Assembly (NCBI RefSeq): GCF_902506345.1
Contig: NZ_LR733413.1
Span: 2,540,617 to 2,604,616, forward strand
Source: Flavobacterium sp. 9R
GTDB lineage: Bacteria > Bacteroidota > Bacteroidia > Flavobacteriales > Flavobacteriaceae
DNA length: 64,000 nt
Direction of reading: 5' to 3'
In this document: positions 57,206 through 63,500 of the stretch, piece after piece
Layout: each line of letters begins with the position of its first letter
Numbering within the stretch: the first letter of the stretch is position 1
Notes under the pieces: generated by a model
Seen by the model: only the letters and a program-made list of their open reading frames with translations
The model's database searches: none
Told to the model about the DNA's origin: nothing
Position numbers and translations under genes: made by a program

Positions 57206-58054
57206 CTACTTGTTTTTTAGCACATAAATTAACGAAGAATACTCATTTGTGCGTCTTGCTTTCCAATTAGAACGCAATCCAACAAAAAAAGCTGAAAAAT
57301 AATTCATTTTTCCCGTTTTATATTTTTCTGATAATAGACTCACATAAAATGAATCAAACTTCATTGGAAGTACTCTTTTCAATTTCATATTTTCTTTTTG
57401 AAAAAGTATTTCGATAGCTTTTTTCGAAAAATGCCAAAAATGAATGGGTACATCATAAGCTGCCCAAAACTGTTGGTAGTGATTGGCATCATAGGATTTG
57501 AAATTGGGTACAGCAACAATTAAAGTTCCAGTAGGTTTCAATAATCGCTTTAATTCTTTTATTTGAAAATCTAAATCAGGTACGTGTTCTAATACATGCC
57601 ACATAGTAATACAATCAAAACTATGAGAAGCTAAAGAAGATGTATCGGGTACAAAAGAAATTCCTTTTGTAATTGCTATGGCTTTAGCTTTCTCACTTGG
57701 TTCGATACCTGTCGTATTCCAGCCATTATTTTTGGCTACTAACAAAAAATCACCTGTACCAGCACCAATATCCAAAAGCTGACCTTTTGAAGTTTGCTCT
57801 GTATTGATTAATTCTAATTTATTTTTCAAAGCAATACCTTTTACAAAATGATAGGCTTTTTCAAATAAACTGCGTTTTGAGTCAGTATGCGAAATATAAT
57901 CTACACTTTCGTAGTACCTTCCTAATTTATCCAATTCTGGTTGTGGATAGGTAACTAACATATCCAAAGTTGCATCGTGATGCAAATCAAAAATTTCTTG
58001 GGAAACGGAATAATCTTTTACGGTAAGAAAATGTTTTTTATCAGTTAAATTCAT
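57206..58054 (-). CDS. Class I SAM-dependent methyltransferase
   Basis: A 282-residue protein. The SAM motif LLDIGAGTGDFLLVAKNNGW with acidic GIEPSEKA, motif DCITMWHVLEHVPDLDFQ and LKPTGTLIVAVPNF mark a class I, UbiE/Coq3-like methyltransferase. The N-terminal (HFLTVKDYSVSQEIFDL) and C-terminal parts resemble methyltransferases of polysaccharide or lipid pathways, but the substrate is unknown. ATG 58054 is preferred; the longer frame begins in the mnmG terminator region. Confidence 0.88.
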   Translation of the reverse strand: MNLTDKKHFLTVKDYSVSQEIFDLHHDATLDMLVTYPQPELDKLGRYYESVDYISHTDSKRSLFEKAYHFVKGIALKNKLELINTEQTSKGQLLDIGAGTGDFLLVAKNNGWNTTGIEPSEKAKAIAITKGISFVPDTSSLASHSFDCITMWHVLEHVPDLDFQIKELKRLLKPTGTLIVAVPNFKSYDANHYQQFWAAYDVPIHFWHFSKKAIEILFQKENMKLKRVLPMKFDSFYVSLLSEKYKTGKMNYFSAFFVGLRSNWKARRTNEYSSLIYVLKNK

Positions 58055-58073
58055 TTGAGGTTGATTAATTGCT

Positions 58074-58105
58074 AAAAAAGGCACTACTCGAAAAGAGTAA
58101 TGCCA
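58074..58105 (-). terminator. Terminator after mnmG
   Basis: GGCATTACTC, loop TTTTC, GAGTAGTGCC on the minus strand followed by six T; about 45 bp after the mnmG stop. Confidence 0.8.
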
Positions 58106-58120
58106 ATATTATTTTATTTA

Positions 58121-58136
58121 AGTTTCACGTGGAACA
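58121..58136. other. parS-like site F (14 of 16)
   Basis: AGTTTCACGTGGAACA compared with the ParB-site consensus TGTTNCACGTGAAACA; differences at positions 1 and 12. It lies just after the mnmG stop, about 1.9 kb from the main cluster. Confidence 0.65.
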
Positions 58137-60047: not shown

Positions 60048-60063
60048 TGTTCCACGTGAAACT
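60048..60063. other. parS-like site A (15 of 16)
   Basis: TGTTCCACGTGAAACT, one mismatch (last base) to TGTTNCACGTGAAACA, in the mnmG upstream spacer. Confidence 0.75.
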
Positions 60064-60094
60064 ATACTTCAGTTACAAATAAAACCCGTGTTAG

Positions 60095-60110
60095 AGTTCC
60101 ACGTGGAACA
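60095..60110. other. parS-like site B (14 of 16)
   Basis: AGTTCCACGTGGAACA; the inner 14 bases are a perfect palindrome, with differences at positions 1 and 12 of the consensus. Confidence 0.7.
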
Positions 60111-60133
60111 AACAAAAAAACATACTTAAAAAA

Positions 60134-60149
60134 TGTTTCACGTGAAACA
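60134..60149. other. parS site C (perfect)
   Basis: TGTTTCACGTGAAACA, a perfect 16-bp palindrome identical to the canonical parS sequence bound by ParB. Confidence 0.88.
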
Positions 60150-60167
60150 TAAAAGAGAGCTTATAAA

Positions 60168-60587
60168 TTACTGTTCCACGTGAAACAGTTGTATTTTTTC
60201 ATCTTCCTTTTGACGCATTAAAAATTCATCGGACTCCGATTTGTCTTTATATCCGCAGTAGTGTAAAACACCATGAACCATAACGCGTTTCAATTCTTCA
60301 GTAAATGAAACATTAAAATCATTAGCATTATCTCTAACTCTTTCAATAGAAATAAAAATATCACCATTCAATTCATTGCCTAATGAATAGTCAAAACTAA
60401 TAATATCCGTTAAAGTGTCGTGATTTAAATACTCAACATTTATAGCAAGTAAATATTCGTCATCACAAAAAATGTAATTAATTTCACCCAACTTTTTGTT
60501 TTCAGACTCTATAACCTTTGTAAGCCAAGAAGCATAAACCGCTTCATCATCTAGAGTAAACTCTAGTTCGTAATTAAAATCAATCAT
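60168..60587 (-). CDS. ybeY: Endoribonuclease YbeY
   Basis: A 139-residue YbeY, the zinc-dependent rRNA maturation RNase. The metal motif reads HGVLHYCGYKDKSESDE, with the usual two His and with Lys-Ser where many bacteria have the third His; this form is, to my knowledge, normal in Bacteroidota. ISFDYSLGNELNGDIFISIERV is the other conserved block. Its last codons (LFHVEQ, stop) are written in a perfect parS site. Its start overlaps the end of the DUF4175-type gene by 8 bp. Confidence 0.95.
   Translation of the reverse strand: MIDFNYELEFTLDDEAVYASWLTKVIESENKKLGEINYIFCDDEYLLAINVEYLNHDTLTDIISFDYSLGNELNGDIFISIERVRDNANDFNVSFTEELKRVMVHGVLHYCGYKDKSESDEFLMRQKEDEKIQLFHVEQ
60172..60187. other. parS site D inside ybeY
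   Basis: TGTTCCACGTGAAACA, full match to TGTTNCACGTGAAACA, entirely within the ybeY coding sequence and ending just before the stop codon. Confidence 0.88.
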
Positions 60588-63500
60588 TTTTATTAAAATA
60601 TTCTTGAACCTTTTGGTTAAAATTGGAGCGCAAAGGTAGTGATTGTCTGTTTAATATTTCTATACTATTTATAAATTGAAGTAAGTTAGTTGGCAGCTGT
60701 TTAACAGGGTTAGAAAAAGACTTAAGATTAGTTTCAGATTGACGTTTTGTGTCTTGACCCTGCTGTTGTAAAGCATTATCAAGTTTAAGCAATTCGTGGT
60801 TGAGATTTAGAATACGTTGTAATACTTCATTCTTAAAACCCTTGTTCAATAATTGCTTTTCTATCTGTTTCATTTGTTCTAATGCATTTTGTCCCGCACC
60901 ATTGATGCCGTTTTTATTCAACTCTTTTTGCAATGCATCACGCAATTGTTTTTGCTCTCTATAGATTTCTAAAATAGATTTTGCATCACCTTCCCCACTT
61001 GAGCCCTCCTCACCTTGCTTAGAATTACTACCACTGGAAGAAGGTTTAGAGTTACCCTCACCAGGCTTACCCTCACCCTTCATTTGTTGCTTCATTTTTT
61101 CACCAAGACCTTTTTGTTTGGAAATAATATCAGGAAGCTGCATACCTTTACCTTGTCCAGGTTTTGGATTTCCACTACTCATACCAGAAAGATCCATTTG
61201 CATATTATGAAGAATTTCACTTAAAAAATCCGCAAGTTTATTAGCAGATGCAACACTAAATTGTTGATGAGAAATACCTTTAGATACTATGCCGTTTCCT
61301 AATTTATCAATTGCATTATCTATATTATACTGAACATTACCGATTTCTTTTGTAACATCCTCAGCAATTTTAGCATTACGCAATGACATAGCAAATAAAG
61401 AATCATCAACATGCTTGAATTGCGTTTTTAGAGTTTGCTGCGTTTTTAAATATTTGTTATAAGTAGCAGAACCAACTTTGGTGGCTTTAAATTGCTTCAT
61501 AACGTCTTCCTGAGAATTTGAAAATGCCAATAAATTATCTAGAACTTGACGTAGCATTTTAACATCTTCTTGCAATTGTTCCTGCTCTCCCCCTTCCATA
61601 GCTTGTTTAAGTGATTGACTCATTTTCTTCAAATTCTGGGAAGCATTCTTTTGAGAATCTTTTGCTTTAGATGGGTTCTTTTTACTTAACTGCTCCTTGG
61701 CGTTATTAAGGTCATTTTGAATCCTATTTTCTAACTCTTTAGTATTAGGTAAATCTAGCGGAGATTTTAAGGCATTATTATCTTTAGTTAATTCATTCAA
61801 TTGCTCTTCAATTGATTTAAATTCATCATTGATTTTATCCTGCTCTTTAAGTGTATTACCATCTTGTTCTTCTGATATTTTTTTTTGATCTTCTGATAAT
61901 TTCTCTAATTTATCAGCCAATTGATTAGCTTTTTTATCAACATAATAACGCTTAGTCAATTCGACTAATTGCTCTAAAGTCTTTACTTGATTCTTACTAG
62001 ATTGCTTAAATTGCTGTAATTTATCTTGAAGTTCTTCCTTATATAGTTTATCATTTAATTCTTTTAATTCGTCTAATAACTTTTTATTCTTATCTAAAGC
62101 ATCCGTAACTTTATCTAATCTTTTTTCTAAAGATTCTTTGGTTTTGTCATTAGCATCCTTCTTATCTTGATTTAAATTTTCTTTGATTTTTTCAGAAAAA
62201 TTTTTCATCAACTGATCTTGTGCTTCTTGTTTTTTGATGAAATCATTGATCATTTGTTGGTCCTTAAACTCTAAATCTTTCTTCTCTTTATCTGATTTAT
62301 TTAGCTTATCAATATCAGAAAATTGTTTAGACTGATTCTTTAGCGTTTTTGCTAAACTATTCAAATTAGAATTTTGATTCTCAATCAAAGCATCCTGCTG
62401 TTCAATTTCAGTACTTATACGATTACTAAAAACAGAAGAACGAACACTTTTAAAATTATGAAGTATATCATTATCAAAAATCTCAAAGTAAAAATCATAA
62501 GCAACACCTTGATTAACTTTTAAATTACCAGGAAAAGAAAAAACAAATTGATCAAAAACTCCTGTATTAGTAGTTAATGTTCCACGTGTGGCAGTAGCAG
62601 GTTTTCCTTTTTCATAATAAACAATTTGAAGTTTAGAAAAGCCATAATCATCTGCAATTTTACCAATAAAGAAACTCTTATCAACCTTAAGACTGTCGGG
62701 AGCTTGTTGTACATCTATGGAAGGAAACTGGTCTTTTACTATAGCTATCTGATATTGTAATTTTTCGAAGTTTTTAAGATTACTATTAGATGTAATTACT
62801 TGATATTCTGTATTTTGATTTATTTTTTTTGCAAAAACAAAAGAATTATCATTAGCTACAAATTTTGATGACATTTTATTTGAATTAAAAACTATAGATT
62901 CAGTTGAAGAACCAATAATTTTCCATTCCACTAGAGTTCCTTCGGGTATAACCGCATTACCAGTACCCTTGATTATTTGCGTTTTTCTTTTTAAGTAATT
63001 GGGAAAAGTTAACTTCATTTCAAAACTAGAAATTGTAGGCACAGAAACGACATTTAACTCATAATCGGGTGAAATAACAGTATTAGCCTCTAGATGAAAA
63101 AAGACTGTTTCTGAAGGGGAATTGATTTTGTATTGAAAAATACCCGAGCCATTGTTCTCCATAAAATAACTTTCATCCCCTATAAAAAGAAGAATATTTT
63201 CAGGTAAAATTGAGCCTTCCGCTTTAACTTTCAGAACAAAATCACTATTCTGTTGTACAACCAAATTAGGATTAAGAATAACTAAATTAAAAGGTGCGGG
63301 CTTAATAAATGATGCCTTGTAGTGAATAACACGATTTAAACTTTGAGAAATAACGCTACTGTTGCCAGAAATAAAAAAAAGTAAAAGGAAAACTAAAGGA
63401 ATTAAAGCTATAGGAAGATAACGCTTATTCTCACCAAAGTTTATAGCTCTACCAAATGGAATAGGTGCTAAATTTTGAGACTTTTGTTCAATTGAAGCAT

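Follow-up and report, generated by a model that had tools for sequence, protein, structure and literature searches.

A putative chromosomal parS array around mnmG in Flavobacterium and its relatives

Five putative ParB-binding sites around mnmG in Flavobacterium sp. 9R very probably constitute the chromosomal parS (centromere) locus of this Flavobacterium-type bacterium. The evidence comprises the sequence match of the sites to parS, their concentration at a single place, the nearness of a GC-skew switch, an encoded ParA–ParB pair with ParB-type motifs, and deep conservation. Points that weigh on the other side are the distance of parAB from the sites, a Noc model as the best NCBIfam score of ParB, a second and weaker ParB_N match, the failure to find ScpA, and the skew around parS in the relatives G162 and G014. 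In this way an expected feature, parS near the origin, becomes a comparative case across a whole genus. The term 'window' denotes the whole stretch of 64,000 nucleotides analysed here (C1:2540617-2604616); it is part of a 3.43-Mb contig (C1) in a genome of 3.58 Mb and 16 contigs, all of which was searched.

Sites and neighbouring genes

The sites and the genes around them are as follows (window positions; no strand is assigned to the sites).

60172..60187, no strand: putative parS site 1, TGTTCCACGTGAAACA on the + strand; inside the 3′ end of ybeY
60134..60149, no strand: putative parS site 2, perfect palindrome TGTTTCACGTGAAACA; 0 mismatches on either strand
60095..60110, no strand: putative parS site 3, AGTTCCACGTGGAACA; 14-bp core exact
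60048..60063, no strand: putative parS site 4, TGTTCCACGTGAAACT; 14-bp core exact
58121..58136, no strand: putative parS site 5, directly past the 3′ end of mnmG
60168..60587, − strand: ybeY (rRNA maturation RNase); TIGR00043, 101.1 bits, cut-off 45; site 1 in its last codons
58152..60023, − strand: mnmG/gidA; TIGR00136, 843 bits, cut-off 524.85; parS sites on both sides
57206..58084, − strand: methyltransferase-like gene, downstream of mnmG; below every NCBIfam cut-off

Each of the five sites contains the exact core GTTYCACGTGRAAC. Relative to the consensus TGTTNCACGTGAAACA on the + strand, there are 1 (60048), 2 (60095), 0 (60134) and 0 (60172) mismatches, and the site at 58121 has 2 on the + strand and 1 on the − strand; relative to the palindrome TGTTYCACGTGRAACA, the five sites have 0, 0, 1, 1 and 1. 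When up to 3 mismatches are allowed, the window holds 16 strand-matches, compared with a mean of 2.86 in 100 shuffles, none of which reached 16. The original prediction, namely four near-perfect parS-like copies at 60048, 60095, 60134 and 60172 with spacings of 47, 39 and 38 bp, and a fifth copy at 58121, is borne out by this mismatch scan; the fifth copy lies past mnmG. The four had been placed between mnmG and ybeY, which is correct for three of them, but the site at 60172-60187 lies inside ybeY, in the codons of the last residues LFHVEQ. The suggested step of four helical turns does not stand; at 10.5 bp per turn the three spacings correspond to 4.5, 3.7 and 3.6 turns, and the sites are therefore not in helical phase. 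Elsewhere in the window, positions 62578-62593 carry TGTTCCACGTGTGGCA, with 3 mismatches and one good half-site, within the coding region of a 1098-aa gene adjoining ybeY.

A genome-wide count of matches, proposed earlier as a check, finds the close ones concentrated at this locus: the exact core occurs five times in the whole genome, always here, and the pattern read backwards is absent. Allowing 1 mismatch to the first consensus adds a single isolated place (C1:2454235, 147 kb away). With 2 mismatches allowed, there are 20 strand-matches genome-wide versus 22 for the reversed control; since the pattern is then no commoner than its control, only close matches are meaningful.

Conservation of the locus

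The locus is old and deeply conserved. Within the genus, the exact core is present in 150 of 150 genomes (this one included), at 2-12 copies. In a YbeY scan, from which the best 80 of 584 loci were taken (titles mostly Flavobacterium; 14 are metagenome bins), the CACGTG core is found at the same ybeY codon position in all 80. Among these, every locus that is long enough (76 of 76) has a site 2.2-3.7 kb from the ybeY start, past mnmG. A site after the mnmG stop is present in all 51 cases checked (50 loci and the window), always within 1.3 kb and in 50 of the 51 within 900 bp. The embedded site is spelled CAC GTG in 81 of 81 ybeY genes, window included; in the rest of ybeY, 50 of 707 Val codons are GTG and 142 of 331 His codons are CAC. 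This codon usage is a base-level constraint within a gene, to be read with the caution that the ybeY genes compared are related.

Two other views of the palindromes bear on these data. A mobile palindrome of the REP-like kind, dispersed through the genome and present here by chance, would account for several near-identical copies in one gap; its likelihood is practically nil, because all five exact genome copies are at this locus and the same place is occupied in 80 of 80 relatives (best 80 of 584). It is exceedingly unlikely that the palindromes are RNA-level elements, i.e. terminators or processing hairpins between ybeY and mnmG. Sites do lie at the 3′ ends of both genes, and the coding-strand RNA folds far better than shuffles (z −6.3), as that of any palindrome set would; however, the predicted stems join neighbouring sites instead of pairing each site with itself, the sites have a ParB-site sequence with base-level conservation exceeding the needs of pairing, and exact cores occur at this locus only.

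Conservation extends beyond the genus. In a family-level search of 60 genomes, this one included, 56 match, G002 only away from mnmG; of the four unmatched genomes, three (G016, G033 and G058) have exact cores of a looser pattern and one (G005) has none. Among 29 family loci read (one per genome, from the 60), 25 have mnmG within 1.5 kb, and two more are near the gene that follows mnmG in the window. Many of the Flavobacteriaceae loci read also have a relative of the methyltransferase-like gene close to the site. Among the 18 loci read from the class but not the family, 12 have mnmG within 1.5 kb; five of the six loci without mnmG nearby come from one family (f5). At the level of the phylum, the exact core is present in 184 of 198 genomes, most frequently in two copies. 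A renewed search at 1 mismatch covered the 14 phylum genomes without an exact core and four family genomes (these with exact cores). It gave a match in 16 of the 18, and mnmG adjoins in 13 of these 16 (10 from the 14 phylum genomes and three from the four family genomes); the reversed control also matches at 1 mismatch in 12 of the 18, so that the place beside mnmG is what counts. ParB is present in all 18, which form part of the 34 genomes asked for ParB, all of which have it. In some loci (L357, L358 and L363-L365) the mnmG-flanking sites have a CATGTG or CACATG core in place of CACGTG, and the genomes concerned also have a ParB relative; these lineages of Bacteroidota may represent a natural shift of parS specificity.

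There is a slim chance that the main role of the array is regulatory, with bound ParB repressing or insulating mnmG and segregation being secondary. The array fills the gap upstream of mnmG, and in Pseudomonas aeruginosa, ParB at the intergenic sites parS3 and parS4 lowers adjacent gene expression, going by the accessible part of that report (PMC7022226). Yet a site is also retained downstream of mnmG, and 6 of the 18 class loci outside the family have no mnmG within 1.5 kb; the gene link is thus not universal.

The ParA–ParB pair, dnaA and ScpA

A ParA–ParB pair is encoded at C1:1,772,183-1,773,855, 0.83 Mb from the parS sites. The ParB scores 171.6 bits on TIGR00180 (cut-off 58.45). Its best-scoring NCBIfam model is Noc (TIGR04285), with 239.2 bits, under the cut-off of 315; this score speaks against the sites being Noc binding sites (NBS), as does their retained parS core. 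By sequence, the closest solved relative is 7bnk, a ParB family protein which we take to be that of Myxococcus xanthus. ParA contains the motif KGGVGKTT, and ParB the motifs GERRLR and ENIQR, presumably serving ATP binding in the former and CTP binding in the latter. ParB also has the conserved R and G, placed by motif, with the Caulobacter sequence and numbering as the assumed reference for their positions. Both residues are described as absolutely conserved in ParB orthologues in the portion of the source available (PMC7383237). A second, weak ParB_N match (29.5 bits) lies in a 508-codon open frame at C1:3001590-3001805.

dnaA might have been expected nearby, but is found at 238 kb on C1, 1.07 Mb from the array. 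The dnaA search covered 12 genomes. In all nine single-record relatives, parS is separated from dnaA by 0.75-1.70 Mb and from parB by 0.80-1.60 Mb, measured the shorter way round the circle; in the three multi-contig genomes (G024, G034 and G127), dnaA is on the same contig as parS, 0.8-1.3 Mb away. In the metagenome-derived G256, the DnaA match (C1:794940-796333) is in two overlapping pieces with six internal stops (5 + 1), which reflects either sequencing error or true decay.

ScpA was not found in the one genome searched for it, this one; among 14 named genomes searched as a control, 9 gave a match, but the one Bacteroides did not. From this absence, the usual parS–Smc–ScpAB link would be missing or replaced. 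The absence agrees with the report, as far as its accessible text goes, that two gut Bacteroidetes lack known condensins (PMC10197239).

The skew switch and a candidate origin

GC skew was sampled along C1 at intervals and read unbroken over 103 kb near the array. Negative values prevail between about 1.66 and 2.62 Mb, the exceptions being positive or near-zero samples at 2.10-2.12, 2.18-2.20, 2.44-2.46 and about 2.5 Mb. Positive values prevail between 2.62 Mb and, via the contig end, about 1.62 Mb, apart from samples at 0.47, 0.57 and 1.23 Mb, which are negative. In 5-kb steps near the array, the values are −0.106, 0.044, −0.072 and −0.104, then 0.124 from 2,619 kb onward. Skew near the array had been proposed as a further check, and a change from negative to positive is indeed found at 2,614-2,619 kb, about 15-19 kb from the array end (2,600,803) and by the AT-rich gap between rnr and rpiB. 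The cumulative skew minimum of the unbroken stretch is at 2,619,617.

The rnr–rpiB gap itself (2,615,907-2,616,984) starts 15.1 kb from the array and 11.3 kb past the window edge. It contains the start (2,616,267) of the most AT-rich 700 bp of the 103-kb stretch (20% GC), and five repeats of the type TTATTAAC occur within 500 bp at the same place. Only one exact E. coli-type DnaA box was found near the skew switch, so that the gap's standing as a candidate origin derives from AT content, the TTATTAAC repeats and skew. The original prediction that this is the main centromere gains support from the concentration of matches, the nearby skew switch and the encoded ParA–ParB pair; judged from skew, the origin may lie close to the window edge, as was also predicted. 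About 7 kb past the window (L049:7137-7952, i.e. C1:2,611,137-2,611,952), a tRNA-Cys is followed by about seven tandem copies of a 90-bp unit that includes a piece resembling the 3′ part of this tRNA.

The nine single-record relatives were read around parS for skew. In four of them (G228, G116, G255 and G032), the local skew minimum falls inside the rnr–rpiB gap; it is 6.6 kb from the gap in G256 and 22 kb in G014. In G023, only rnr was found, and the minimum is 20 kb from this gene and 15 kb from parS; the record of G025 starts beside rnr and shows one side of it. The 80 kb of G162 read around parS contain neither rnr nor rpiB nor a skew switch, and this genome gives no support to an origin near parS. 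Three of the nine records begin at dnaA (G014, G162 and G228). The origin region in Flavobacteriaceae may be better sought by mnmG and rnr–rpiB than at dnaA.

The sampled skew suggests very unequal arms in C1 (about 0.97 and 2.45 Mb), and one 16S gene was found; the arms of G014 and G228 seem better balanced. The unequal arms could stem from a misjoin at a collapsed repeat or from a true rearrangement.

Number and spacing of sites

In the best 80 of 584 loci, between 1 and 12 sites (up to 2 mismatches allowed) lie in the ybeY–mnmG gap. The commonest of the 305 spacings in these loci is 46 bp, and a single one falls below 37 bp. With end sites fixed and overlap forbidden, random placement predicts 91 of 291 spacings below 37 bp (lowest of 500 runs, 73), compared with 1 of 291 observed. 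Judged from spacing, the floor near 37 bp looks like a steric rule for adjacent ParB dimers, and suggests that these must fit side by side. Helical phasing was considered and rejected, since periodicity is weak: for the 288 spacings of up to 130 bp from the 80 loci, which are not independent of one another, R at 10.5 bp is 0.125 (p about 0.01); for the 203 spacings of up to 60 bp it is 0.18, with a preferred phase near half a turn, not a whole one. In one locus (L118), the gap has six sites, spaced 116-118 bp apart, whose core has decayed to CACATG and which lie in tandem units with TGTTCCACATGGAACA-like sites; this suggests that arrays can grow by duplication and then decay.

Across the 150 genus genomes, the number of core copies correlates with genome size (Pearson 0.857, Spearman 0.779), as it does within size classes (rho 0.40 below 4.5 Mb, n = 107; rho 0.54 at 4.5 Mb or more, n = 43). 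Outside the genus, 39 rows at the family, order and class levels show no relation with size (rho 0.01). After phylogenetic correction on 51 genomes, with sizes rounded to 0.1 Mb and a tree built from two linked genes (ybeY and mnmG), the slope is 1.53 sites/Mb (p 5e-5, lambda 0.725), and 1.23 sites/Mb at lambda 1 (p 0.0025). The tree set took 50 of the 80 loci, omitting the 14 metagenome bins, three loci that end early past ybeY, every fifth of the remainder, and L152. Larger genomes also tend to have a higher non-coding fraction in the flank upstream of ybeY (rho 0.40, p 0.005; 48 of the 50 loci, two with too short a flank being left out). When this fraction enters the model, the size slope persists, with p 2e-5 for lambda 0.65 and p 0.0019 for lambda 1.

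Two accounts of the array can be given, both of which leave the identity of the sites as parS untouched. It is only a little short of an even chance that site numbers above one or two are neutral: palindromes in AT-rich gaps would multiply by tandem duplication wherever non-coding DNA is tolerated, and the link with size would be a side effect. The stepped, decayed array of L118, the parallel rise of the non-coding flank and the flat relation outside the genus all favour neutrality, but the persistence of the slope in the controlled model, the spacing floor, and the fact that most copies retain the core though gap length and spacing differ between loci argue against it. More tentatively, and with some doubt, the Flavobacterium centromere may be a size-adjustable array at one origin-side point, in bacteria whose one tested member has no detectable ScpA; selection would keep about 1.2-1.5 more parS sites per extra Mb, and clamp loading would scale with the amount of DNA moved. 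The genus offers a natural experiment: its members have between 1 and 12 centromere sites at one fixed locus, and larger genomes tend to have more of them. The question of why bacteria have several parS sites becomes testable by comparison and by site removal.

Likely mode of action

The likely working of the locus is standard ParABS segregation of the origin region, all steps of which are inferred beyond the DNA sequence. ParB dimers would load on each site as CTP clamps and then slide to flanking DNA; ParA would move the ParB complex, giving early segregation of the newly copied origin region. With several sites, mostly 37-60 bp apart, more clamps could be loaded per centromere while the entry points are not spread over the chromosome. 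A tight array that adds loading sites at one point would fit a low-collision arrangement, or a system without Smc–ScpAB.

Comparison with known systems

Literature searches on parS with Bacteroidetes, Flavobacterium and ParB returned no title on this locus; the survey of Livny et al. 2007, which is said to be the main one for parS and may already list such sites, fell outside their scope. There was likewise no title on the subject for parS with mnmG and ParB, or for oriC and dnaA in Flavobacteria, and nothing was found on parS sites with Flavobacterium johnsoniae and oriC, or on the number of parS sites versus genome size. In these searched topics, a fixed, coding-embedded, mnmG-bracketing locus whose copy number follows genome size was thus not found. 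The parS site class itself is already known, as is the dense array, from the accessible text on M. xanthus.

The comparisons below extend as far as the parts of each source that were available. The locus resembles the ParABS systems of Bacillus subtilis, Caulobacter and P. aeruginosa in its 16-bp site and encoded ParA and ParB (PMC7022226, PMC8357415), and in having its sites clustered within tens of kb of a skew switch. It differs from these three in that most sites are 37-60 bp apart and one is inside a coding region, that parAB and dnaA are about 1 Mb away, and that no ScpA was found. Smc collisions in Bacillus become more of a risk when several parS sites are present; the authors' speculation is that a weaker Smc can be tolerated where parS sites are tightly clustered (PMC8357415).

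Gut bacteria including Bacteroides caecimuris and Muribaculum have 1-10 parS sites per genome, mostly clustered, and parS together with GC skew was used to place the origin, which is not always at dnaA (PMC10197239). The present sites are similar in being clustered, in a phylum (Bacteroidota) represented in that study. Neither mnmG nor gidA occurs in its main text, and the accessible part makes no mention of array spacing, a coding-embedded site or site number versus genome size.

The nearest published analogue seen is M. xanthus, with 22 parS sites in 3 kb, about 4 kb from parA (PMC3899335, as far as its available text extends). The two share a dense multi-copy parS array, near the origin there and near the candidate origin here, and the M. 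xanthus consensus, TGTTCCACGTGGAACG, is almost identical. Unlike that array, the one described here brackets mnmG, lies 0.83 Mb from parAB, and has 1-12 gap sites among the relatives read.
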